From Bombella favorum (GTDB taxonomy: Bacteria > Pseudomonadota > Alphaproteobacteria > Acetobacterales > Acetobacteraceae): a DNA stretch of 64,000 nt. Each line of letters starts with the position of its first letter. Position 1 is the first letter of the stretch. Positions 6,185 to 22,145 of the stretch are shown here, piece after piece. The DNA lies in contig NZ_NWUS01000002.1 in NCBI RefSeq assembly GCF_014048475.1, positions 186,001 through 250,000 on the forward strand, in the 5' to 3' direction. The notes beneath the pieces were generated by a model that worked only from the letters and a program-made list of their open reading frames with translations, ran no database searches and was not told where the DNA came from. The position numbers and the translations under genes are program-made.

Positions 6185-6502
6185 TCATCTTGCCTTGCAG
6201 ACCTGCCCTTGTTTGGCATCCTTCTGACAGTCCGTCATGCTAGCAATAGCACTACCCGCTCCCCCAAAGCGGAGAGACTGTGTCGTAGATGCCTGCTTTT
6301 CAGAGGAAGGACGGGCAGGCACGGTCTCCCGTCCCTTCAGGTGAAATCTCGGCAGATGCACCTTGCTGAACAACCTAAAAACGCCCCGGACTGGAAAAGA
6401 GGGACGCCCCGCCATTGCAGGCTCCGGAAATATCCCTCCCGCAAGCATTAAAAAAATCAATGAGATGACAAATACCCTATGTGGAGCATTGTTTTGTATC
6501 AT
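6185..6502 (-). CDS. Small secreted or periplasmic protein, unknown function
   Basis: Not recognised. The 105-residue product begins with a convincing signal peptide: basic start, hydrophobic VFVISLIFLMLAGGIF, and an AMA-G cleavage site near residue 31. The mature part is basic and Ser-rich, with two cysteines near the C-terminus (DCQKDAKQGQVC) that could pair in the periplasm. AGGGTG lies six bases before the ATG. It is divergent from the HEPN gene, with 46 bases between the starts, so the two may share a regulatory region. Confidence 0.6.
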   Translation of the reverse strand: MIQNNAPHRVFVISLIFLMLAGGIFPEPAMAGRPSFPVRGVFRLFSKVHLPRFHLKGRETVPARPSSEKQASTTQSLRFGGAGSAIASMTDCQKDAKQGQVCKAR

Positions 6503-6548: not shown

Positions 6549-7217
6549 ATGACTACCGTATTACACTATGAAGCCCTGAAAGAAAGACAACGTAGCCTTC
6601 GGCATGATTTCCCCGAAACCATGGGGTTGCGAGTCCACCGTGCTATCAGCTGGATTGGCCGAGCCGAACAGTGCGGAAATGATGAAGATGCCCGCTTCAT
6701 TTTCCTCTGGATTTCTTTCAATGCCGCTTACGCTGATGAAACCGATTTTCAAGGGACTACCATCGGCGAACGGGCTACCTTCATCAATTTCTTCAATAGG
6801 TTGACCCAGCATGACATGAAAGAAAAAACCATCTACACCGCCTTATGGCATCGCTTCTCCGGCCCTATCCGCACCCTCATGAACAACCACTATATATTCC
6901 ATCAGTTCTGGCAACATCAGAATGGTATGGAGGGCTTTGAAAACTGGGAAGAGACATTCCAGACATCCACGCGGTCATTCCAACAAGCCTTTCAGGATGG
7001 CAATGTCCCCAAAGTTCTCCGTTTCGTCTTCGATCGCCTCTATGTTCTACGCAACCAACTGGTACATGGTGGGGCGACGTGGAACAGTAGCATCAACCGT
7101 CACCAAGTACGTGATGGAGCCGCCATCCTCGCCTTTCTCATGCCCCTTTTCGTGCAAATCATGATGGCTAACCCTCACGAAGACTGGGGCCGCCCCTTCT
7201 ATCCGGTCGTAGATTAA
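6549..7217 (+). CDS. HEPN-domain protein (Apea-like)
   Basis: A 222-residue helical protein. It carries FIFLWISFNAAY near residue 51 and the motif RNQLVHGG at 168-175, where R168 and H173 form the R-x4-H signature of HEPN ribonucleases. This arrangement resembles Apea-like HEPN proteins, often found in defence and toxin-antitoxin settings. A role as an RNase is inferred from the motif, not shown. AGAGAGG lies four bases before the ATG. Its 3' end converges on the small repeat protein, and a 10-bp inverted repeat lies between and across their ends. No obvious antitoxin (MNT or similar) is adjacent. Confidence 0.8.
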   Translation: MTTVLHYEALKERQRSLRHDFPETMGLRVHRAISWIGRAEQCGNDEDARFIFLWISFNAAYADETDFQGTTIGERATFINFFNRLTQHDMKEKTIYTALWHRFSGPIRTLMNNHYIFHQFWQHQNGMEGFENWEETFQTSTRSFQQAFQDGNVPKVLRFVFDRLYVLRNQLVHGGATWNSSINRHQVRDGAAILAFLMPLFVQIMMANPHEDWGRPFYPVVD

Positions 7218-7229
7218 CAACACAGACCA

Positions 7230-7280
7230 TCAAGCGAAGGTAGTCAGGTATAATCAAAAATAATCTGGCACTTCGCTTGA
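7230..7280. repeat. 10-bp perfect inverted repeat between convergent genes
   Basis: TCAAGCGAAG at 7230-7239 is the exact reverse complement of CTTCGCTTGA at 7271-7280, with 31 bases between. The right arm lies inside the end of the small repeat protein gene and the left arm just past the HEPN stop. It could fold in transcripts from either side. There is no T-run immediately after an arm, so a classical terminator is not supported. Confidence 0.6.
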
Positions 7281-7465
7281 GATAGAATACTACTGAGTGC
7301 CGCTGTTGATGCTTCAGATGCGTCTGTAATGATGAGATAACAACCCGGCTTAACATATTGAGCCAATGTTATAATCTCCGAGGCACTATAAACAGAAGCC
7401 GAAACCTTTATTCCTGCGCCCCGTTGAGCCAAGGTCATGATTTCTGAAATAGATTTGCGTGGCAT
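7244..7465 (-). CDS. Small triple-repeat protein, unknown function
   Basis: Not recognised. The 73-residue product consists of three copies of a roughly 23-residue unit: SISEIMTLAQ followed by a GIKVSAS strand, SASEIITLAQ followed by YLIITDAS, and TAALSSILSQ followed by CQIIFDYT. Each looks like a short helix followed by a beta strand. I chose ATG 7465 because AGGAG sits six bases upstream; the frame continues to 7528 without a comparable site. It is convergent with the HEPN gene. Such short repeat proteins may act as partners or scaffolds, but that is speculation. Confidence 0.6.
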   Translation of the reverse strand: MPRKSISEIMTLAQRGAGIKVSASVYSASEIITLAQYVKPGCYLIITDASEASTAALSSILSQAKCQIIFDYT

Positions 7466-7859
7466 CACGCACTCCTTATCTCTAAATATAAGAATTTTTT
7501 CGTACGACACTAGGAAATCATCACTCAAGAAATCTCCCTTCCGTTACCGTAGATGACTATACGCCTCTCTACCCCAAAGTCTCTACCCTAAAACGAGGCT
7601 GTTACTGCCACCTATGACCATTTCTGACGTAACAACGAGCTAAATCTCATCACTATTCCTTTCATACCCCATACCAACATATAAGAAGCTATTACTATGT
7701 ATGCACTCTATGCAGCCGTGTTAATCACCTAACGGGCAATCTTCGTACTTAACGCCATTATACAAGGCCAAGAAACTTGAAAAAACAACACGTTAACGCT
7801 TATGTAGAAGCACTAACCGTTAAATAGACATAACAGCTATAAACTAAGGAGAGCGTATT
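7466..7859. promoter_or_regulatory. Gene-free region upstream of the WYL regulator, with TTAACG elements
   Basis: No convincing gene in 394 bases. TTAACG occurs at 7749-7754 and 7793-7798, the latter inside the palindrome CGTTAACG (7791-7798). The inverted form CGTTAA is at 7818-7823, close to the WYL gene start. These could be operators for autoregulation by the WYL protein (inference). The gap also holds the likely promoter of the leftward small repeat gene. Confidence 0.35.
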
Positions 7860-8840
7860 ATGAGAAAAGAAAAACTGGCCGACATTATAAAACTTGCCCG
7901 CCGCCTCTCTGTCTCCGCTGAGGGCATGACCCTAGATGAAATAGCCAGCTATATGCAGGTCAGTCGCCGCACAGCCGAGCGCATCCGCGATGTTCTTCAA
8001 GAAGCATTTCCCGGTATGGATGTCCTAACAGATGGGCCCAAGCACCGCTTCCGCTTGCCTGCCGGTATCATGGACCGTTTTATGAACACACCAACTGCCG
8101 ATGAGATGGCCGCCCTGCAACATGCAGCAACATCACTTGAGAGACAGAATGCCACAGGACGGGCCCTTCTCCTCTCCGAACTTTACAACAAAATTGAGAG
8201 CATGCTTCGCCCACCAGCCCGCACCCGTCTCGCACCAGACATCAATGCGCTTGTACTGGCAGAAGGCGATGCTATGCAGGCTGGCCCTCGCCCTACGGCT
8301 GATGCGCCCCTTCTAAGCACAATCCGCCATGCCCTAAAAGCAGGACATGCTCTGCATTTTACCTATCAATCTACCCAAAATGCAAAAAAGCGTACTGTTT
8401 CACCTTGGGGACTTCTATACGGTAAAGCCTATTACCTAGTCGGCCCCATGCAGGGCGTGGAAACCCCGGTCCTCTGGAGGCTAGACCGCCTCCAAGATGT
8501 AACAGAAGCAGGACTAGCTACCCTTCCCCCAGAAAACTGGTCCTTACAAGACTTTGCCAACCGTTCCTTTGGGGTATGGCAGAACAAGCAATATGACGTT
8601 GCTCTCCGCTTCTCACCCACCGCCGCCGCCGACGCCCGCCGTTTTCTCTTTCATCCCAGCCAAACCGTAACGGACGAAAAAGACGGTAGCCTACACGTCA
8701 CCTTTACGGCCAGCGGACTACACGAAATGGCCTATCACCTCTTCACATGGGGCAAGGAAGTCACCATCCTCGCCCCTACTGAACTTAGGACAATCCTGCT
8801 AGAGATGTGTCAAGCAATCCTAGATAACGGTACTACTTGA
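7860..8840 (+). CDS. WYL-domain transcriptional regulator
   Basis: A 326-residue DNA-binding regulator. The N-terminal winged helix-turn-helix (about 1-65) contains MTLDEIASYMQVSRRTAERIRD. A WYL domain spans about 140-215, with LHFTYQS and VSPWGLLYGKAYYLVG; the eponymous Trp is Tyr here. A C-terminal WCX-type domain ends the protein. WYL proteins bind ligands such as nucleotides or nucleic acid and often control defence islands (known for BrxR/CapW relatives). AAGGAG lies eight bases before the start. Convergent with the SUKH gene, it may regulate the neighbouring operon and its own promoter, which is inference from position. Confidence 0.88.
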   Translation: MRKEKLADIIKLARRLSVSAEGMTLDEIASYMQVSRRTAERIRDVLQEAFPGMDVLTDGPKHRFRLPAGIMDRFMNTPTADEMAALQHAATSLERQNATGRALLLSELYNKIESMLRPPARTRLAPDINALVLAEGDAMQAGPRPTADAPLLSTIRHALKAGHALHFTYQSTQNAKKRTVSPWGLLYGKAYYLVGPMQGVETPVLWRLDRLQDVTEAGLATLPPENWSLQDFANRSFGVWQNKQYDVALRFSPTAAADARRFLFHPSQTVTDEKDGSLHVTFTASGLHEMAYHLFTWGKEVTILAPTELRTILLEMCQAILDNGTT

Positions 8841-8850
8841 AGACAATCAC

Positions 8851-9249
8851 TTAAACTCTGAAGAAATCCTCAAGGAAAACTTTCAGACTTTTCCTCTGAT
8901 CATCAACATCACCGGCGATTTGCCAAGAGAATACGCTACCCCTTTGACAATCATACAAAAACCACGCTCCCGCCCCATTACTGACCAAAGGTAACATCAA
9001 AGGTGGATAATCAGGGAGCAGTCGTAGCTTCTGCAACGCATTCCCGATGTTCAAATAATAATCTTTGGGGACCCCTAAACCATAGAACTCTTTCCCATCA
9101 AGATAGATAGTACCCATACATCTAAGATAATCTTTATAGTCATTATCAAAAGAAAATCCGATAATATGCTCAGAATTTTCAATATCACTATCACTAGATG
9201 TGGTAAAAATAGCACCCTTTTCGAGCAGGGTTTTTTTTACATTTTCCAC
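8851..9249 (-). CDS. SUKH-family (SMI1/KNR4) immunity-like protein
   Basis: The 132-residue protein matches the SUKH pattern: an early acidic region, PKDYYLNIG-type helix, DYKDYLRCMGTIYLDG leading into FYGLGVP, then LPLVSNGAGAWFLYDC and a C-terminal FLEDFFRV helix. SUKH proteins are common immunity proteins against polymorphic nuclease toxins (established). It begins with GTG, with GAGAGG eight bases upstream, and starts 33 bases after the stop of the nuclease-like gene. This is the classic toxin-then-immunity order. It is the last gene of the leftward operon. Confidence 0.82.
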   Translation of the reverse strand: MENVKKTLLEKGAIFTTSSDSDIENSEHIIGFSFDNDYKDYLRCMGTIYLDGKEFYGLGVPKDYYLNIGNALQKLRLLPDYPPLMLPLVSNGAGAWFLYDCQRGSVFSWQIAGDVDDQRKSLKVFLEDFFRV

Positions 9250-9282: not shown

Positions 9283-9993
9283 TCACAAAGACTTTGTTCT
9301 ATCCTGCCAATACTCATGTGTATTACGGCCAAAGTCTCTGATATCAGAGACAACACCAGTCTCCTGACGAAACAAATTCACTGCTGTATTTACGTTACTC
9401 ATAATAGAATTTGTCACTTCAGCATACGGAGCATCTGACTTCTGCCCGATCTGATGCAATTCTACGACTTCTCCTGTTGGCGTTAATGGCGGAAGACCAC
9501 GTTCCATACGCTCAGCATTTGTCCAGTTACGCACCGGATCAACCTGCTGCATGTCGATATCGGGCCGCACAAGAGCTATAGCGTCACCCACCTTGGCACC
9601 CTTTAGCCCTTCTTCTGCGTAAACACTCGCTTCACCTATCCCCGAAAGAGATATGATAATGCTACCAATCATCGTCTTATCCAAGCCTAACGCCTGCACA
9701 ATAGCTCCGGCTTCCTGTGCTGTAACCTTAATCTCGTGCTTAACAGCCTCAATCTCAGCTTTAAAAGCATCTGGAATTGACTCACCGTCCAAAACACGCA
9801 AGGCTGTACCGACTACACTACCACCAAGCATCCCCCCCATGATGCCACCTTCCGGTCCTCCCACCATGGTGCCCAAAATTGCCCCTGCGGCCATACCACC
9901 ATATCGCCCCCAAGAACCATCTGAAACATGTGTCTCTTGAGTCTCTTGAGTCTCTTGAGTCTCTCGAATACTACTCTGATTATTATTCATCAT
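9283..9993 (-). CDS. Glycine-zipper protein with C-terminal HNH/Endo VII-like toxin domain
   Basis: A 236-residue protein. Residues 11-22 are an (ETQ) repeat. A glycine-rich hydrophobic segment at about 31-68 (repeated GG and GxxxG) looks like a membrane-inserting glycine zipper. Residues 156-236 resemble LHH-type HNH/Endo VII nuclease toxins: NAERMERGLPPLTPTGEVVELH, QIGQ, DAPYAEVTNS and a final EYWQDR. The LHH motif reads L179-H180-Q181, and the later family histidines before the YW segment are not evident, so catalysis may be altered or lost. The start overlaps the ATPase stop by four bases (ATGA). The SUKH gene follows, supporting a toxin-immunity pair. Nuclease activity is inference. Confidence 0.75.
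   Translation of the reverse strand: MMNNNQSSIRETQETQETQETHVSDGSWGRYGGMAAGAILGTMVGGPEGGIMGGMLGGSVVGTALRVLDGESIPDAFKAEIEAVKHEIKVTAQEAGAIVQALGLDKTMIGSIIISLSGIGEASVYAEEGLKGAKVGDAIALVRPDIDMQQVDPVRNWTNAERMERGLPPLTPTGEVVELHQIGQKSDAPYAEVTNSIMSNVNTAVNLFRQETGVVSDIRDFGRNTHEYWQDRTKSL
9933..9968. repeat. 9-bp tandem repeat in the 5' end of the toxin-like gene
   Basis: The unit TCTCTTGAG is repeated perfectly at 9933-9941, 9942-9950 and 9951-9959, with a degenerate fourth copy to 9968. On the coding strand it encodes Glu-Thr-Gln units. Because the unit is a multiple of three, copy-number change would alter protein length without shifting frame. Confidence 0.9.
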
Positions 9994-12900
9994 GCTACCG
10001 CTCCATCCTGACTAATGTAACCTCTCCACCGGGCACAAGTGGCGGTACGATCTACGTTATCAACCCCTGCCCAGTCGACCAACAAAAAAGAAGTCAACTG
10101 TCTCTGTGTTGTCCCAGGCAGTCTAAAATGCCGCTGAATTAATCTACCTACGGCAACATCCAAGTCTTGCTCAGACTGTTTTCGCCCAGCAATCAAAGCG
10201 ATCTGGCGGCGTAACCCCACTATATCGGTTACAAGCTTTGCCAAAAGATAATTCTCAACTTCTGAAGACCGTGGCATTTCAGAAAAAGTCCCTGCCTCAT
10301 ATCGTCGTATATAAGACATCAATTTCTGACTAATCGCTTCATCAGGCCACCTTTGTGCCTGTTTCTCCAGAGCGGTGATATCCGGCTTACTCGCCATATT
10401 TGTCCATGGCCACATGAGAAACTTAATAGCGGCGGACTGAAAGGCTTTAACCTCCAAACTTGTCAACTTAGCCTTACCAGTTACCACCATTGGCTTGGAT
10501 AACGTTTCTTCATCAAAACGATCCATATGGCACAACACAGCTTGCAACCACCCTGACTGCCTAACAACGGCTACACCGTTCTCCAACCGTGCCATTTCTT
10601 TGATCTGCTCATCATTTAAACCAATAGAGGCTCCCAACACACGGCGATCTTCCTCATCTGGCAAACGAAGAGCAATCTTCGTGCCTGTATTCCGAATAGC
10701 AGCGCGATGAACCGCTTGTGGAGACTGGTCAACGATGACAAAACCTTCACCGTAGGTTCTCATCTCTGCAATAGCATCTGTAATCATCTCAACAGATTTA
10801 CCAATTACACCCCCCTGCTGCTCATCACCTCCTTGCGTTGCACCAGCACGCAAAAGATTATGGGCCTCTTCCAGCACAGTGACATGACGCAAAGGTGCAT
10901 TCATCTCCCCCTGAGCCTGTCGGTATTCCACTAGCCGCATGACCAACATTCCCATGATGAGAGACCTTGTTTCAGCGGACCCAACACGGCTAAGGTCTAC
11001 AAGGGCGGCTTTATCAAACAGGACTTCATCACCTGTCTCATCTGCTACAAAAATTCTGCCACTAAATCCACTTGTCAAAGACCTAACACGGGTACAAAGG
11101 GCCCCTGTATATTCGGCTTGTAAACGCTCACCGTACCCTGCTGCGGCAATCACATCTTCCAAGGCGGCAAGCAGCATCACAAAATCAGGATAAGCGGGAT
11201 CACCATCACCCAGATAAACTGATGCCTCTACATTCCAGCCTGCTCGCTCATAAGCGACAATAACAGCCTCTTTCAACAAAATCGGCATAGCATTATAGAG
11301 CGGCCAGCAAACGCAGAATATCCCCGTTAAGCGGTCGATATGCTCCAACAAGGACAACTCTTTCGGGCAACGGAATGGATTTAATTTTAACCCATTCGCC
11401 CGTCCTGTCCCAGCATCATAGCAATTGACCTGCTCATACCCACCGAAAACCTGAGCATACTCCCCCTTAGCAGGCTCCACGACCAGAAAAGGAATCCCTG
11501 CTTCAAGCAATTGGTGCAACATAAGATACAGCGTATTGCTCTTGCCGGACCCCGTGGTGCCAGCCACAAAGGCATGTGTTCTCAACTGTTCCCGGTCGAG
11601 CCATATCTTTTGTGGCATATCCTCCCATAGGTGACGGATACAACCAAGCTTCAGAGCGGTCTGCCCCCGCCCTCTCCGCTGGTCGGACATCGTGCCATCA
11701 ACATGCTGTATAGAACGCCCAAAAGGTTCAGCCTGCAATACGGGCAGGGTGGAGGCCGAGCGTCTCGGCAGACTCAACATCATAGCAGCTTCACGTGTGC
11801 TTACTATGGTAGCCGGTGAAAGACAGTTGCCCACATTCCCGTTCATCCCAGGAAGAGCCTGAGCACTCAGACGAGGATGATGAAAATCCCCTAACCACTT
11901 GCGCGGCAATTCAGCCGCTGCACCACTCCATGTAGTAATGGCATGAGTATCTTTACCAGAAGCTACCCCGCGCATCAGCCCTATGTAGGTACTCGCCAAG
12001 CTTTCCGAAACAGCCGGCGTATCCGCCACAAAATAAGCAGCCGCATTCCAACCACCATAAGAATGAGCTTCATCAAGCCGTTCAAGACGATAATCAATCG
12101 TTTTCAAAAATTGTTCGGCACTCTTGTTCTGCTGCTCGAATGTATGAGTGATGCCACGATTAACACCATCTGTTGTAGTATTCCCCTCACTTGTGGAAGT
12201 ACCACCGGTTTTAGCCCAGGATGTAGAGGAATTAGTCCCACGACTCTCCCCCCAGCTCTCACTCTTCGTATCCGTCTTATGCGGAGCAATAGACGAACCC
12301 AGAATGTTCCCTATCTCTCCCGCACCGATGCCAGCTACAACCTCCCTAAGTAGACCGCCACCCGGTACCATGGCATCAGCCAGAACACCTAGCCCTGCTG
12401 CTAGTCCTGTCGTCAGACCACGAACAACAACACGCCCTCTAGAATCCTCGGTCGTGCCTGTACTTCCACCTATATTGGAAGTATGGTTCTCCCCCTCAGT
12501 AACCGTTTCAGAAAAACCCTCATTTATTGATTTTGTTAAGCTTTCTGCAACAGAGTGACTTTCCGACTGGTTATAAGCCGTTGTCGTCTTAACCAGAGGT
12601 GAGATTAGAGTCGCAAGACGCTCACAACTCGACCTCAGGACGCTCAGCTCTCCTGGCGATACTGGATCAGCCAATATTAACGCCTGATAGCGTTTCCCTT
12701 CTGCAGCATCAATAAAATGTTCCAACCCCTGAATAAACATGGATCGGTCCTCACTCGAGAGCCCAGGAACACTAGTTACCGCCGTCACGCTCCCCCATGA
12801 GTCCATCACCATCGTACCACACAAGGAGGCCGAGATCATCTTGGTGGCATCGCCATCCTGCTTTTCTAACTGGCTACCCGGGAAATGACCACGGAACACC

Positions 12901-13268
12901 TCCTGCAACAATGCGCCATGCTGCTCCCCAATGCCGGCACCAGATGCCCCACGTACACCAATGTACAGGTTCGTTTCCTGCCCTGTAGAATAAAGATAGA
13001 AAAAAATAGAACTCTTTACGGCACCAAGTGTAGCGTAGGCTGCTGTCGCACTCTCCAACACAGCCTCCCGGTTCTCCTGCACAAGGCGAGTAACCCGGAA
13101 CAAACGTACATCACCGCCTAGAGTAAATCCTTCTTCATCTTTGAGCTGCGGACGCAGAACTGTGCAGCTGCCTAGCTGGGGCAAATAGTCCTGAGTGACA
13201 ACGGACTTTGCCAGAGACAAATTACGTTCCGCTCTTTCCCGAGCCACAGCTAGTGTCTGATCAATCAT
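9990..13268 (-). CDS. HerA/FtsK-type ATPase with large atypical N-terminal region
   Basis: A 1,092-residue protein. The C-terminal half is a HerA/DUF87-type P-loop ATPase: Walker A FVAGTTGSGKSNT near 567-579, EPAKGEY following strand two, Walker B HVTVLEEAHNLL near 795-806, and FVIVDQSP near 843-850. The N-terminal 560 residues contain a folded domain (about 20-230), a Ser/Thr/Gly-rich low-complexity linker (about 235-390) and, inside it, a hydrophobic Gly-rich segment (about 283-328) that could contact membrane. Start ATG 13268 has GCAGGAG six bases before it. HerA-type ATPases translocate DNA or proteins as hexamers (known). Its position beside a toxin-like gene suggests export or DNA handling, but the substrate is unknown. 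Confidence 0.85.
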   Translation of the reverse strand: MIDQTLAVARERAERNLSLAKSVVTQDYLPQLGSCTVLRPQLKDEEGFTLGGDVRLFRVTRLVQENREAVLESATAAYATLGAVKSSIFFYLYSTGQETNLYIGVRGASGAGIGEQHGALLQEVFRGHFPGSQLEKQDGDATKMISASLCGTMVMDSWGSVTAVTSVPGLSSEDRSMFIQGLEHFIDAAEGKRYQALILADPVSPGELSVLRSSCERLATLISPLVKTTTAYNQSESHSVAESLTKSINEGFSETVTEGENHTSNIGGSTGTTEDSRGRVVVRGLTTGLAAGLGVLADAMVPGGGLLREVVAGIGAGEIGNILGSSIAPHKTDTKSESWGESRGTNSSTSWAKTGGTSTSEGNTTTDGVNRGITHTFEQQNKSAEQFLKTIDYRLERLDEAHSYGGWNAAAYFVADTPAVSESLASTYIGLMRGVASGKDTHAITTWSGAAAELPRKWLGDFHHPRLSAQALPGMNGNVGNCLSPATIVSTREAAMMLSLPRRSASTLPVLQAEPFGRSIQHVDGTMSDQRRGRGQTALKLGCIRHLWEDMPQKIWLDREQLRTHAFVAGTTGSGKSNTLYLMLHQLLEAGIPFLVVEPAKGEYAQVFGGYEQVNCYDAGTGRANGLKLNPFRCPKELSLLEHIDRLTGIFCVCWPLYNAMPILLKEAVIVAYERAGWNVEASVYLGDGDPAYPDFVMLLAALEDVIAAAGYGERLQAEYTGALCTRVRSLTSGFSGRIFVADETGDEVLFDKAALVDLSRVGSAETRSLIMGMLVMRLVEYRQAQGEMNAPLRHVTVLEEAHNLLRAGATQGGDEQQGGVIGKSVEMITDAIAEMRTYGEGFVIVDQSPQAVHRAAIRNTGTKIALRLPDEEDRRVLGASIGLNDEQIKEMARLENGVAVVRQSGWLQAVLCHMDRFDEETLSKPMVVTGKAKLTSLEVKAFQSAAIKFLMWPWTNMASKPDITALEKQAQRWPDEAISQKLMSYIRRYEAGTFSEMPRSSEVENYLLAKLVTDIVGLRRQIALIAGRKQSEQDLDVAVGRLIQRHFRLPGTTQRQLTSFLLVDWAGVDNVDRTATCARWRGYISQDGAVA

Positions 13269-13320
13269 ATTCTGCTCCTGCAGCATTATCATTTTTCATC
13301 AAAGGCAGATTTGCGCCCGT

Positions 13321-14266: not shown

Positions 14267-16525
14267 TCAAGATTTTTTATTGAGTATTTCGTCCAGACGA
14301 CCTCTTATTGCACGAATTTCTTCCAGATTTTTCTCTGCTTCGGCTTGTGCCCTAGCTTGTTCGGCTGCATCGCTTTCCCGCTTTTCAATATCCCGGTCCA
14401 GCTCATCCAACTTTTCTGGCAAAAGCTTGTTCACACGTTCCTTGAAGAGTTCCACGTAATCAGCACGATACGTTAGAATCTTCTCCTCTGCCCGCGATGT
14501 AGCGTCGTCAAAAGTCTCTGAAACATCGAGAGCCCGTTGGTTCCAAACTGCGTTTACGTTACCAACCTTGTAATCATAAACTTCCTTCTCTGAGCCCCAA
14601 GAGAACGGATTCCACCATCTGGATGTAGAAACCTTTCGGGCCTCCTTCACGACCTCGCTCGAATCAAGTTTCATATCCATACTAAACGTCACATTTTCCA
14701 AAGCACTCCACAATGGACGATTCATCGTGCCATCATCAAGGCCAGCAAATACGGCTTTTATCTTCTCAGCATAAAAAGATTCCAGCTCAGCCGCAATCTG
14801 TTGGTTTGAGTCCTCCATACAGCCATTGAGAAAGGCTAAATAAGTCTGAAAATAGCCTTTAAATTCTCTCATAAGAGAATTTAACTCGCTATTGACCCGA
14901 CTAACATCATCAAGCCCGGTCAGGCGCCTCCCAGCCGTATTAAGAAACATTTCACGCTCAGTCCGTTTTTCCTGAATCGCCTTCACAAAAACTTGAGGGA
15001 GCTCTTCACGCTGTTTCAGCTCATCAAGAAAAGACTGACTTTCCCATACCTTCGTAGACTCGTTCCGCAACCGCTCCACAGCGTTCCGAATCTTCTTTAT
15101 TTTTTCACCACTTTCCGAAATTAACTTTACAAACTGCTCCTCACTCCTTCCAATTTCCAACACTTCCTTTGCAACACTCGCAAGGCGATGCAGTCGGAAC
15201 GAATAATTATATTTACGAGCATATCCTTTAATAGCTGCTTCCAAAGCAGTAATACCAGACCGGCATGCAAGTTCATTATTTCGATCAATCGCTACAGAGA
15301 AAGTAGTCGGGGCCTTCTCACTCAGATCAATACCCGGCCAATTACTCTCCGGATCCGGCAGGAAAGTCGTCTCCATACCAGTTAAATCGCCTTTTTCCTG
15401 ACGCGTGAAACTACTAACTGGATTGGCCTTCTTTCGTGACAACAAGGCTAAGCGGGCTGATACAGGATAAATAAAGGGACTCTCAATACCAACACCTTCC
15501 AAATAATCGCGGCACTGTCCCAATATTCTATCAATGTCCTCCCCTTTTTCTGGATCAAAAGCGTCTGCTTTATTCAGAACGAAAAGGAACCGGTCTCGTG
15601 CCTGTGGATCGTCCTTTATGACCCTTCCAATCTCCTCCAATAATCTCCTATCATCATTAATACCCATCTGTTCAGAATTAAGAACATATAGAATAAGAGG
15701 TTTCTTTTTATTATCTTTTATCTTTGCCATGGTAATAACACCATGACTCTCATCACGGCTGTTATTAGGACCAGGTGTGTCCGTAAGAACAACATTAAGG
15801 TTCTTCTCATCCATCACGAAAGGAAGAGGCCCCTCCAACGAAATCGTATCTACCTGCTGATGACGATTCCACTTTCCCATCGTCTCAAGAGTGACATTCT
15901 CAGGACCGCCCATCTTTTTAGCATCGGAAGCACCCGGCGTGCCACGATAGGCCGTACCTGCATAAGATGCCCTCGGCACATTCTTAATTTCCGTTATGAC
16001 AGCCGTTGTCGCCTCATTGGCAGACGGCATTAACTCTTTGTGCAAAAAGGCATTAATGAGAGTCGACTTGCCAGAAGACATAGTAGCGACAACATAAATA
16101 TCAAACCTATCCCCTAGAGCTTCATCAATTTTTGCCTTTTTATCTGGATGTTCCTCCAATAACTTTTTAAAAAATAGTCTATCATATTGCTCATCAAGCC
16201 AATTCCTAAATTCCCCGAACTTCTCCTGCGGGGACGGCATGGCCTTATACTGCTTAAAAGTAATCTTAAAGCCCTGCTCATTCGCTTGGCGAACCATCTT
16301 CTCGACATCTTGTAGGTCGGACTCTGTTCCTGCGAATGTCAAATCAATGACATTCTCCCCTTGGTAGCGCTGCTTTAGCTCACCAGGCAGTTTATGGATC
16401 CACGTCTGAAGCATCTTCTGGCTCAGTACTGCTAGCTCGTTCGGCTTCTCAAGCTTTTTCCCATTTACCTCAATGGATCGATTATCTGGGCTAACTGGGT
16501 CATAAACCAAAGAAACATCAAGCAT
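14267..16525 (-). CDS. Bacterial dynamin-like GTPase
   Basis: A 752-residue protein and the first gene of the leftward operon. The GTPase domain begins near residue 140. P-loop ATMSSGKSTL is at about 147-156, a switch I Thr in EATTAV near 171-176, G3 DTPG at 249-252 and G4 NKAD at 318-321, matching the dynamin family. The C-terminal half is long helices with strong coiled-coil character (KIRNAVERLRNESTKV; DRDIEKRESDAAEQARAQ), the expected stalk. An N-terminal 140-residue extension is not recognised. Bacterial dynamins remodel or tether membranes, and some protect cells during phage attack (known). No strong ribosome site precedes the ATG. Codon use looks more AT-rich than the flagellar genes. 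Confidence 0.88.
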   Translation of the reverse strand: MLDVSLVYDPVSPDNRSIEVNGKKLEKPNELAVLSQKMLQTWIHKLPGELKQRYQGENVIDLTFAGTESDLQDVEKMVRQANEQGFKITFKQYKAMPSPQEKFGEFRNWLDEQYDRLFFKKLLEEHPDKKAKIDEALGDRFDIYVVATMSSGKSTLINAFLHKELMPSANEATTAVITEIKNVPRASYAGTAYRGTPGASDAKKMGGPENVTLETMGKWNRHQQVDTISLEGPLPFVMDEKNLNVVLTDTPGPNNSRDESHGVITMAKIKDNKKKPLILYVLNSEQMGINDDRRLLEEIGRVIKDDPQARDRFLFVLNKADAFDPEKGEDIDRILGQCRDYLEGVGIESPFIYPVSARLALLSRKKANPVSSFTRQEKGDLTGMETTFLPDPESNWPGIDLSEKAPTTFSVAIDRNNELACRSGITALEAAIKGYARKYNYSFRLHRLASVAKEVLEIGRSEEQFVKLISESGEKIKKIRNAVERLRNESTKVWESQSFLDELKQREELPQVFVKAIQEKRTEREMFLNTAGRRLTGLDDVSRVNSELNSLMREFKGYFQTYLAFLNGCMEDSNQQIAAELESFYAEKIKAVFAGLDDGTMNRPLWSALENVTFSMDMKLDSSEVVKEARKVSTSRWWNPFSWGSEKEVYDYKVGNVNAVWNQRALDVSETFDDATSRAEEKILTYRADYVELFKERVNKLLPEKLDELDRDIEKRESDAAEQARAQAEAEKNLEEIRAIRGRLDEILNKKS

Positions 16526-16947
16526 TAGATCACACAGCCATTACTAGAAAGATTAACCGGACAATAAGAACGCTAGGACCGAAAAAAAATCTTGGCAAGT
16601 CCATTTATCAGACCATACCTATAATCATATTACGTCATTTCCGGTCGCACATAACGACATGGGTGGAAATAAAAGATATATAAATAAATTTAAAATTTTT
16701 GTTTAAAATATTATCATTAGTAATGATCAAGAAAGGCAGAATAACATGAAATTTTCTCTATCCTTAGATGGGTATTGTGCAACAAGGATGGCAGAATGGC
16801 TCCCAGACGCCCATACATAAGAAGCGCAAGTGTCTGCTGGACTATAGCCAATGAGTTGAACGGCCCTAATAACCGTTACTGGACATGCCGCCCCGTCACA
16901 GTACCGGCCTATTTCTTTAACTAAACAATCAATCTTAAGGAATGATC
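16526..16947. promoter_or_regulatory. Gene-poor AT-rich divergent region before the dynamin operon
   Basis: About 420 bases with no supported gene. The part at 16,660-16,730 is extremely AT-rich (long A/T runs) and is a likely divergent promoter zone for the dynamin operon and the rightward secreted protein. A 24-codon reading frame at 16746-16820 is too short and unsupported to call. No repeat or attachment site was recognised. Confidence 0.4.
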
Positions 16948-17604
16948 ATGCCAACACAGTTCTCACGCCGCAGGAAACCACTCTACACCCTTCTTGCCTT
17001 TGCACTGTCAGCCCTCTCATCTAGCGCGAGCTATGCGGCGTCTACAATTCGGGATGTCCGTGATACAGTCCAAGCCATTCCCGTCAAACTAGATGCAGAA
17101 GCGCAAGTACCCATCAAAAAAGGGGAGGTCCTTCAACTCCTCAAGCTCTATCACGACAACGCTAATGCATGGTCATGGAACGAATATCTCGCCTTTGAAC
17201 CCTGCCCCCGCAATGCGACCCTTCGCTGTGCTGTGCCTTTCCAAGATACACAAGGGAAAGAGTACACCCTGAAAGATGCCCTTCATAACGAAGAAGATGC
17301 GCTAACCACCATCGGGTTTTACAGAGTAGAGAGCAGCCAAGGCCGTTGGAATCTCTTCATGATCCGCATGGAACGGCCGCTAGGTGATTCAACCTATGCG
17401 AAAACAGAGACAACAGCCCATATCAGCCTGTTCAAACTAGCTCCGCAAGCATCGGATGTCGCCATGCCAGAGAATAACTACTTTGAAGAAATCGCCACCC
17501 TTCCCATGGGCGGCTACTGCAATAGCACCGTGGCCCTCAGCACATTCCTCAACCAGCCCCTTCCCCCCGGGGTCGCACCCGATGGCTGCATGCAAGGCCA
17601 GTGA
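16948..17604 (+). CDS. Periplasmic/secreted protein, unknown function
   Basis: Not recognised. The 218-residue product has a signal peptide (RRRKPLYTLLAFALSALSSS, cleavage near ASYA-A) and a mature domain with four well-spaced cysteines (FEPCP, LRCAVPF, GGYCNSTV, DGCMQ) that could form two disulfides. Start ATG 16948 has AAGGA six bases upstream; the ATG at 16942 is too close to that site. It stands alone between the accessory operon and the flagellar genes and converges on the MotE-like gene. Confidence 0.75.
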   Translation: MPTQFSRRRKPLYTLLAFALSALSSSASYAASTIRDVRDTVQAIPVKLDAEAQVPIKKGEVLQLLKLYHDNANAWSWNEYLAFEPCPRNATLRCAVPFQDTQGKEYTLKDALHNEEDALTTIGFYRVESSQGRWNLFMIRMERPLGDSTYAKTETTAHISLFKLAPQASDVAMPENNYFEEIATLPMGGYCNSTVALSTFLNQPLPPGVAPDGCMQGQ

Positions 17605-19358: not shown

Positions 19359-22145
19359 TCACGGGGCCTGCTGTACAGACACAAGAAGACGGAACATCCG
19401 CCCGGCATCACCCTCAAAAGGCCGATCTCCTACACGGTTGCGTATCCATTCCAATGCTCCCGCATCCCCAGCACGGGAGGCATCCGAGGCAAAACGGAGG
19501 GCAAGAAGCTGCTGGTCCACCGTCAACTCTCCCTGTGGCGGCAAAAGCTGCTCCGCCATGCTGCGCAGGTCTGTAATGGCAGGGGACCATTCTTCCCGGT
19601 TCTCATGGATATGCGCCCGCATATCCGCCGCTTGCGGGTCCTGATCCGCCCCCAGCAGATACAGGGCCACTTCCGGCTTGCCCGAGGCCGCTGCCATACT
19701 GGCCATAAGGCGGGTCCGTCTAGCAGTTTCCTGTGCAGGCAGAGACGTATTGCCTGTGCTTGCCAGTATGTCAGAAGCCTTATCAAACAGGCCTCGCCTG
19801 ATTTCATTCTCGGCCAAAGCATCCCCGGCTGCGGCTTTGTCCTGTGGGTTTGTCATCATGGGGATGGCCGTACTCATGGCGTCTCCGGCCTGTTCATCCA
19901 GCCCCAACCTGCCTAGCAGCTTACCGTAAGCCAACAGCAGGTCCCCTTTCTTCGCACTAGCGGGCAAGTCCGGCATATGCGCCCTAAGAAGAGCAGCCTC
20001 ATGCAGCAAGGTAGCTTCATCTTGCGGTGTAACCTTGTGCCCTGCACCTGCCGGCTCGGACAGTCCCTGCACAACACCGGAAAGTGCAGCGGACAGCAGG
20101 GCTTGCATACGGGCTTCATCGTGTGGTGGGGGGGCCTGTCGAGCCTGATCCAACGCCTGAATCGCTGGCTCCCACTGATGCGCCCGTATATCGGCCCCGG
20201 CCCGCAACATATTCACAATACCGTCCCGGCCAGACAAACGAGCATCCGGCAACAGGGAGGCATATTGCCGGGCAGCTTTCTCGGCAGAAAGATGACCATC
20301 CCGGAAGCTCAGAGCCACACCCTCTTCCATAGCTTTCTCGGCAATGACGGGATCATGATCCACCGAAAGTGCTTCCAGAAGGCTAGTGGCCTTTTTCTCG
20401 TCACCATCACGCAACGCCCGCACCGCCTGAATGAAGCGGAACTTGCTGTCTTCCGGCAGATGGTTCAGGGCTTCACGCTCTTCTGGCGTTCCACGGCGCG
20501 CGATAAGTTCTGCCGCCACAGGCAATAAGGACGACCGCAATGGTTCGGGATAATTCAACAAGCGGGGCATATCCCGGGCCAGCAAACGAGTAGCATCACT
20601 GGCTTTCTCGCCAGAAAGAGCCTCATACAAGCCCTGCCACAGTTTCGTAGCCCGCATGGCCTGCTCCGGCCATTCCTGTACCAACTGAGCCGCAGCGTTC
20701 ATCTGGCCCGTCAGCAGGTCAGTCGCTGCCAGAAAAAACCGTATATCCGGACGAAACGCCTCTTCTGGGTCATCCTCCAAGGCTACATCCATGATGGCCC
20801 GTGCATCCGGAAAAGCACCGACACCCAAGGCAGCCTGCGCCGCTTCTAGCCGTTTCCTAAAACGATCTTTTGGGGATGAATCTGCTGCAGCCACAAGAGC
20901 CTGACGGTAACGCTCCTGCGCTTGCGATGCTGTCAGATGTTTCAGGCCAAGCCAGTTCAAGTCCACATCACTGGCATAGACAGCTCTGTCCATATCCGCC
21001 AACGGGCGGTCATCAGCCCGTTGGAGCAGGTCTCCCTGCATGATGGCCCGCATGACCACCTGCGGCGGCTCATGTTGGGCAATCACGACACCTTCCAGAG
21101 ATGGCCAGACGTCATAATCCTTGCCTTTACGCAAAGAAAGCAGACCACCATCATCCAGAGCGGTCGTCCCCACGACCAGCGGTGTTCCTGATGCCGGGTC
21201 CTTAATAGAAAAGACACGCCCTGGACGCCGCATGGGGAAAAGCAACCCATTCCCCCGTGGTTGAGGAGTAATTTCTGGTCTATCTGTATAATCCATGCCA
21301 GGTGGCGGCTGATCGCCCAACACCCATCCATCACTCTGCTGAGAAAGATAAAGCTGGCGTGTATCTGGCACGGGTAGGCTGATCATTGTTAGGTCCGGCA
21401 GCGTTGTCACACCCAACCGGGAAAATATACCATCCCCATGCAGGGCTGAGACATCCATGGGCTGGCGGGCATCCACCAAAATGATGAAACGATCCCCACT
21501 CTGATAAGCCGCAATACCCATCTGCTCGGGAACAGGAAGTAAAACCCTATTACGAGACGACACGGAAGCAGCCGGCTCATTACCTACCGTCTGAGAGACG
21601 TGACTGGATTCTGTGCCACGAGGCCCGGCTGCGCTGGCCTGCTCCCGACCCGCTTCTTCCAGAAACTGATTAAGGGACTGATCCTTGTGGTCTGCTGGAG
21701 CGGCTGGGTCCTGCTTCTTCGCAACAGCCCCTCCCTGTGCAGCTCCCACGCCTAAAACATGCGCCCCCCACCCCGAAGGCACCCCCTGAAGAAGGGGATC
21801 ACCCGGTTTTACGTGATCCTGCACATGTAGAGACGATGAATCTGGCTTATTTGGTTGCGCCTGCTTCTGCATCACATGCGGGCGATTATGATGGGCACTC
21901 ACAGGAGCCCGCTTATGGTCTGCTACAGGCTTCGGAGATGGGGACTTAACTGAGGCAGCATCCATAAAAGAGGACGCCCCGGACGTGGTCTGCTCTGCCA
22001 GAGCCGTGCCACATAGCAACCATGACGAACCACCAGATACAGCCCCGCCAAGTATGATCAGACTGGCAACACCATAGCCAGCCCTGCGCCAGATTCCATC
22101 TCCCGCCATGGCTCTAGAGACAGCCTTATGAACAGCGCATAGCAT
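19359..22145 (-). CDS. Large membrane-anchored TPR-like protein in the flagellar locus
   Basis: A 928-residue protein. A hydrophobic segment at about residues 24-50 probably anchors it to the inner membrane, with the rest in the periplasm. Residues about 55-200 are low-complexity and polar. The middle holds beta-rich segments (DRFIILVDARQPMDVS). From about 410 onward come helical repeats with TPR spacing (RKRLEAAQAALGVGAFPDARAIMD and similar). The function is not known to me. Its position directly upstream of flgB and flgC suggests a role in rod or peptidoglycan-spanning assembly (inference). GGGGGA precedes the ATG at 22145; a later ATG at 22109 is possible. Confidence 0.8.
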   Translation of the reverse strand: MLCAVHKAVSRAMAGDGIWRRAGYGVASLIILGGAVSGGSSWLLCGTALAEQTTSGASSFMDAASVKSPSPKPVADHKRAPVSAHHNRPHVMQKQAQPNKPDSSSLHVQDHVKPGDPLLQGVPSGWGAHVLGVGAAQGGAVAKKQDPAAPADHKDQSLNQFLEEAGREQASAAGPRGTESSHVSQTVGNEPAASVSSRNRVLLPVPEQMGIAAYQSGDRFIILVDARQPMDVSALHGDGIFSRLGVTTLPDLTMISLPVPDTRQLYLSQQSDGWVLGDQPPPGMDYTDRPEITPQPRGNGLLFPMRRPGRVFSIKDPASGTPLVVGTTALDDGGLLSLRKGKDYDVWPSLEGVVIAQHEPPQVVMRAIMQGDLLQRADDRPLADMDRAVYASDVDLNWLGLKHLTASQAQERYRQALVAAADSSPKDRFRKRLEAAQAALGVGAFPDARAIMDVALEDDPEEAFRPDIRFFLAATDLLTGQMNAAAQLVQEWPEQAMRATKLWQGLYEALSGEKASDATRLLARDMPRLLNYPEPLRSSLLPVAAELIARRGTPEEREALNHLPEDSKFRFIQAVRALRDGDEKKATSLLEALSVDHDPVIAEKAMEEGVALSFRDGHLSAEKAARQYASLLPDARLSGRDGIVNMLRAGADIRAHQWEPAIQALDQARQAPPPHDEARMQALLSAALSGVVQGLSEPAGAGHKVTPQDEATLLHEAALLRAHMPDLPASAKKGDLLLAYGKLLGRLGLDEQAGDAMSTAIPMMTNPQDKAAAGDALAENEIRRGLFDKASDILASTGNTSLPAQETARRTRLMASMAAASGKPEVALYLLGADQDPQAADMRAHIHENREEWSPAITDLRSMAEQLLPPQGELTVDQQLLALRFASDASRAGDAGALEWIRNRVGDRPFEGDAGRMFRLLVSVQQAP

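Follow-up and report, generated by a model that had tools for sequence, protein, structure and literature searches.

What holds together the cluster of genes that separates chemotaxis from flagellar genes in Bombella favorum, and what might such a cluster do? Bombella is a honeybee-associated acetic acid bacterium. The window analysed here is a stretch of 64,000 nucleotides from its 1.97-Mb genome (G000), for which a preliminary description had proposed a defence or conflict cluster made up of a HEPN protein, a WYL-type regulator and a five-gene operon. WYL regulators are known alongside defence islands, and the signal that they read is rarely known.

An accessory insert between chemotaxis and flagellar genes

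The window proteins were mapped onto the corresponding interval of nine Bombella congeners (G118, G170 and G200–G206, among which G202 is B. pluederhausensis); G032, whose flagellar gene gave no match, was left out. The cluster is an accessory insert, and its proposed location between chemotaxis and flagellar genes is borne out: in five congeners (G201, G203, G204, G205 and G206), the gene for the chemotaxis receptor is next to the flagellar gene and the interval is empty of island genes. Only orf16942 of the island genes is found in the interval of G200. The intervals of G170 and G118 contain orf6185, the HEPN-like gene, a 73-aa gene and the WYL gene, with the operon absent, and that of G202 contains the WYL gene, the 73-aa gene and the operon, with HEPN absent at the locus. 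Of the 11 Bombella genomes searched, 4 have the WYL gene and 2 the dynamin gene. The G+C content of the insert is 47.5–50%, against 54–56% in the flanks.

The internal arrangement differs from that first described. The HEPN-like and WYL genes are next to the operon, as claimed, but they do not flank it on two sides; both are at its 3′ side and convergent with it (Table 1). When the HEPN–WYL–operon neighbourhood was followed through relatives, partial pairs were seen to recur, the operon standing beside a WYL gene in G202 as well, but no fixed unit emerged. HEPN and WYL genes occur without the operon in G170 and G118, WYL and operon without HEPN in G202, and the operon without WYL or HEPN in G135 and on an Escherichia coli plasmid; the reading of the cluster as one unit is contradicted by each of these arrangements.

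Table 1. Features of the island in the window
Feature	Position	Strand	Remarks
Short exported protein (orf6185), opposite island edge	6185..6502	-	
HEPN-like protein, 222 aa, R168-NQLV-H173	6549..7217	+	separable island passenger
73-aa protein between HEPN and WYL genes	7247..7465	-	no family; alpha/beta model, pLDDT 89.8
Predicted DriD-type operator TATGACCATTTCTGACGTA, upstream of WYL	7613..7631	+	
-10 match GCTAAATC after WYL-side operator	7639-7646		matches Caulobacter -10
WYL+WCX transcription regulator, DriD homologue	7860..8840	+	Pfam, PDB match
SUKH / SMI1-KNR4 immunity-type protein	8851..9249	-	PF14568, E 9e-11
Glycine-zipper N-terminus with LHH (HNH/Endo VII) nuclease-type domain	9283..9993	-	PF14411, E 1.7e-11
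HerA/DUF87-type ATPase, Ser/Thr-rich N-terminal region	9990..13292	-	PF01935, E 1.5e-9
312-aa protein, C-terminal membrane segment	13321..14259	-	no family; conserved in G202, G135
Dynamin-like GTPase, first operon gene	14267..16525	-	PF00350, E 6e-13
Predicted DriD-type operator TGCGACCGGAAATGACGTA, upstream of dynamin operon	16631..16649	-	-10 'TA' at 16621-16620
Exported 220-aa protein (orf16942), island edge	16942..17604	+	in G200 without island

The WYL regulator and its predicted operators

The assignment of a WYL-type regulator has stood: its WYL and WCX domains lie well above the Pfam cut-offs, and its open reading frame is the sole WYL match in the 1.97-Mb genome. The best PDB matches, 8tp8 and 9pfq (residues 1–315, 273 bits, E = 4e-80), are labelled 'DeoR-family transcriptional regulator' and 'WYL domain-containing protein' in their files; we take both to be structures of DriD, which fits the description in the papers. 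The window protein is a full-length homologue of DriD, with 46% identity over 315 aa, the RRTAER of the N-terminal HTH region is identical in the two proteins, and the DriD architecture of wHTH, three-helix linker, WYL and WCX domains is present in one chain of about 330 aa. Judged by these sequence features, the regulator is DriD-like. The resemblance to DriD of Caulobacter crescentus (8tp8, 9pfq; PMC12340889, PMC4211646) takes in the domain order, the operator and the −10 spacing. Repression of the type carried out by BrxR was rejected on sequence, the BrxR-type entries 7QFZ and 7T8K not being among the PDB matches at E ≤ 0.01 and the closest match being DriD.

The WYL domain of DriD is the site of ssDNA binding, and the protein activates promoters at which it occupies the −35 region (PMC12340889); by analogy, the window protein may bind ssDNA and act as an activator on DNA damage. 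In Caulobacter, DNA-damage genes are under the control of DriD, and the target list of PMC12340889 contains no defence genes. The window regulator differs in being an accessory island gene whose predicted target is a neighbouring exchangeable cassette rather than didA, recJ, bapE or dnaG.

A common palindrome, TACGACCGNNNNTGACGTA, was found by eye upstream of the WYL gene and of the cassette in G000, G170, G118, G202 and G158, the last being of another genus, before the likeness of the WYL protein to DriD was recognised. It is the published DriD operator, ATACGAC-N7-GTCGTAT, and resembles the sites in the didA and driD promoters, much of the spacer included (PMC12340889). The core of the cassette-side operator, CGACCNNNNNTGACGTA, has a single exact match in the 1.97-Mb genome. 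With matrices trained on the other genomes, the two operators are the top two matches in G000 (64 kb), G170, G118, G202, G142 and G189 and rank first and third in G158, a comparison in which the initial choice of sites was made by eye in these loci themselves and some of the genomes are close relatives. The expected number of chance matches per Bombella site in 400 bp is about 0.0003–0.0005 on a Markov background. Taken alone, the cassette-side operator of the window scores 15.8, within the best chance matches of 64-kb shuffles (mean 12.8, maximum 19.3), so that the weight of this site comes from its position and from the relatives.

The spacing of the sites is similarly consistent. A 'TA' begins nine bases past the palindrome in 16 of 22 sites, with no other offset occurring more than four times, and both window operators have it at the nine-base position, which is that expected of the −10 element if DriD binds over the −35 region (PMC12340889). 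Loci without a WYL gene mostly have no comparable site: in G135, where the operon occurs without WYL, the best score is 7.1, that is, no site, and in G203 there is one match of 16.2, inside the chemotaxis genes. Other near-operator matches in the genome (L132–L136 and L138) are without the nine-base 'TA', L135 being one base off, and we therefore claim no wider regulon. Matrix scoring of the region upstream of the HEPN-like gene found no DriD-type site. These predicted sites give good support to DriD-type control of the cassette, and the suggestion that the WYL protein controls the operon gains support from the putative operator in front of it.

Each of the four Bombella loci with a WYL gene has the 73-aa gene beside it, as does G158, apparently in duplicate and with a stop in one copy. 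G118 and G202 (L048:7054-7236, + strand; L063:15026-15208, − strand) encode a 60-aa protein, with a single predicted membrane helix, in the stretch that separates the DriD-type site from the WYL gene; it looks decayed in the window (near 7697–7860) and in G170. Caulobacter likewise has a small membrane protein with a single helix, the division inhibitor DidA, which is under DriD control. In other Acetobacteraceae, a DriD-like WYL gene is often paired with that of an AAA+ ATPase of about 700 aa (L052, L053, L032, L089, L091, L092, L099 and others), with the same operator and −10 spacing upstream of the ATPase gene; on this sequence evidence, the ATPase is a probable DriD target, a form of control of which we saw no description in the literature. 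DriD-type sites also precede a hypothetical–AAA–WYL operon and an ADP-ribosylglycohydrolase gene on the Leisingera plasmid pBMJM1_5 (L139:16894-16916 and 19960-19982).

Cassettes of the slot and the HEPN-like gene

The slot beside the WYL gene is filled differently from genome to genome. In G000 and G202 it holds the operon for dynamin, membrane protein, HerA-type ATPase, LHH and SUKH proteins. In G118 it holds, convergent with WYL, genes for two dynamin-like GTPases that match, along their length, PADLOC LeoA (332 bits) and LeoBC (314 bits), and a LeoA/LeoBC pair likewise lies beside WYL in G158 (314–350 bits for the LeoA/LeoBC matches overall), the PADLOC models including candidate as well as known systems. 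In G170 it holds, in tandem with WYL, a pair of genes whose products are a small GTPase and a membrane protein. All these cassette types carry the operator. The Leo proteins (PMC4159319) are dynamin-like GTPases, as is the first product of the window operon, but the latter has no match to the Leo models. A literature search found no paper in which Leo was tested against phage. The Leo profile, run over 289 genomes of the class, picked up housekeeping GTPases in almost all of them, so that a rate of WYL–Leo linkage could not be drawn; G373 alone looked like true Leo.

In the window operon, the LHH-domain gene is followed by the SUKH gene, the order of a toxin and its immunity protein. A scan of genome contigs with the window ATPase matched B. 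pluederhausensis only. The E. coli plasmid pTW10590_133 has a cluster with the same gene order (ATPase 43%, dynamin 30%, toxin 29% and immunity protein 32% identical), annotated as dynamin, dynamin, hypothetical, ATP-binding, HNH/Endo VII nuclease and SMI1/KNR4; clusters of this type were found in 1 of 5,426 E. coli genomes. It differs in having no WYL or HEPN gene, an extra dynamin gene, an ELHH motif and no glycine zipper. The three Acetobacteraceae copies of the LHH protein have a glycine-rich N-terminus, missing from the E. coli copy (L143:10112-10711 compared), and read ELHQ or ELHR at the motif (ELHQ in the window). This departure from ELHH makes nuclease activity of the toxin doubtful, and the mode of action of the Acetobacteraceae protein may have changed relative to that of the E. 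coli copy. Since the operon occurs elsewhere without WYL or HEPN, it exists independently of them, and in Bombella it appears, from its predicted operator, to have come under control of the DriD type.

The preliminary identification of an R-x4-H HEPN protein is upheld by the RNQLVH motif and by homologues at 51–69% identity that are annotated 'HEPN domain-containing protein', although the match to PF18735 (E = 0.03) is below the Pfam cut-off. The R-x4-H motif is kept in every standalone copy read. The AlphaFold model is helical (pLDDT 80.7), and its best VIA structural match among those compared is the AMPylated HEPN toxin 8xdj (Z 7.6 over 109 aa, next row 5.9), which is below the bar for helical bundles and, for a helical protein, no more than suggestive of a HEPN-toxin fold; Foldseek with the same model gave nothing below E 0.7. 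The protein may act as an RNase. An MNT–HEPN toxin–antitoxin arrangement was rejected, no neighbouring open reading frame scanned having a nucleotidyltransferase match.

Homologues of the HEPN-like protein are found on 27 plasmids, and a WYL gene is near the homologue in six of the seven plasmid loci read, which belong to different genera. It lies 25 bp upstream and co-directional in Leisingera and Haematobacter, and a frameshifted WYL gene has the same place in Aminobacter; the distance is about 1 kb or less in Sinorhizobium and Sphingobium and 4.8 kb in Paracoccus, and the Ochrobactrum locus has no WYL gene. Genes for RecB-like, exonuclease or AAA proteins are often found nearby, and the WYL–HEPN pair is also seen on two viral-collection contigs. 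The family is defence-associated and does tend to occur close to WYL genes. The WYL proteins beside the plasmid and viral homologues belong to a different branch, about 31–37% identical with the window WYL protein, and DriD-type sites are absent where the plasmid genes lie next to HEPN. A HEPN paralogue that carries an additional, fused N-terminal region lies next to hsdM–hsdS–hsdR in G202 and in the window genome (L055:9304-10408 and L059:9238-10350). These paralogues have RSQLLY instead of RNQLVH, with the catalytic histidine replaced, and the copy in the window genome is frameshifted. Because the HEPN-like gene comes and goes separately in Bombella and has no DriD-type site, we regard it as a separate passenger of the island.

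A proposed switch for exchangeable cassettes

The low G+C content of the accessory insert, the LeoA–LeoBC pair in the slot of a sister genome, the occurrence of the HEPN family near WYL and nuclease genes and the HEPN paralogue at hsdM–hsdS–hsdR together support a defence or conflict island. That part of the original proposal is well supported, but the HEPN–WYL–operon trio as a single unit is not. The island may serve against phage; a literature search on defence in Bombella found nothing direct.

Overall, we favour, at a probability of about two in three, the explanation that the island combines a switch of the DriD type with interchangeable conflict cassettes under its control, HEPN being separate from it. 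The WYL gene and its 73-aa partner gene would form the regulatory module, adjoined by the slot for the cassettes. Single-stranded DNA, accumulating in DNA damage or phage replication, would be the signal for the WYL protein, which would bind the palindrome over the −35 region and so switch on the cassette, here a dynamin-like GTPase, a membrane protein, a HerA-type ATPase, an LHH-type toxin and a SUKH immunity protein. HEPN would be a second, separately acquired RNase-like defence gene outside operator control. The proposed switch has partial parallels. BrxR (PMC9122601) and CapW-type regulators are WYL proteins beside defence genes in mosaic islands, but BrxR binds a different site and represses. 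SiwR of Mycobacterium (PMC10693628) is an ssDNA-binding WYL activator of adjacent genes under genotoxic stress and as such similar, but it controls DinB/YfiT-like genes and not an exchangeable defence slot.

The main rival explanation, which we consider unlikely, is that the operon serves as a weapon against competing bacteria and is induced by damage, colicin-like but under DriD instead of LexA; the glycine-zipper/LHH protein would be exported with the HerA-type ATPase and the dynamin, and the SUKH protein would give immunity. Bacteriocin-like genes are often damage-induced, which counts for such a weapon. So do the LHH–SUKH combination, a toxin/immunity pairing of the polymorphic systems treated in PMC3482391, and the glycine zipper of the window toxin, glycine-zipper bacteriocins being found in Caulobacter (PMC5380434). 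The zipper is, however, missing from the E. coli toxin, and the Leo and small GTPase pairs that occupy the same slot have no toxin/immunity gene.

It is distinctly improbable that HEPN, WYL and operon make up one defence unit in which the WYL protein represses or activates a HEPN RNase effector. In the three Bombella genomes with HEPN at this locus it does adjoin WYL, and the close plasmid pairs of Leisingera and Haematobacter, with the frameshifted one of Aminobacter, point the same way; against this, HEPN is absent at the G202 locus and without a DriD-type site upstream, and the plasmid regulators are of the other, site-less branch. The locus is clearly a hotspot in which HEPN assorts independently, and the WYL protein might regulate only itself or distant genes, with the cassettes as unrelated arrivals. 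Such chance co-location has very little in its favour once the operator is seen to precede three unrelated cassette types and to be missing from the cassette without WYL.

Returning to the DriD-type switch, we put forward a wider proposal tentatively, at somewhat less than even odds: the ssDNA sensor would be a mobile, general-purpose on-switch whose operator precedes whichever conflict cassette fills the slot (dynamin–HerA–toxin, Leo or small GTPase pair, and the AAA+ ATPase in other Acetobacteraceae), tying the cassettes to ssDNA from infection or damage. Here exchangeable cassettes are tied to a WYL protein whose operator is defined and which has an ssDNA-gated relative of solved structure, and the idea that ssDNA switches on defence thereby becomes directly testable. 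The operator and its spacing, moreover, provide a sequence signature for finding candidate DriD-controlled cassettes in other alphaproteobacteria.
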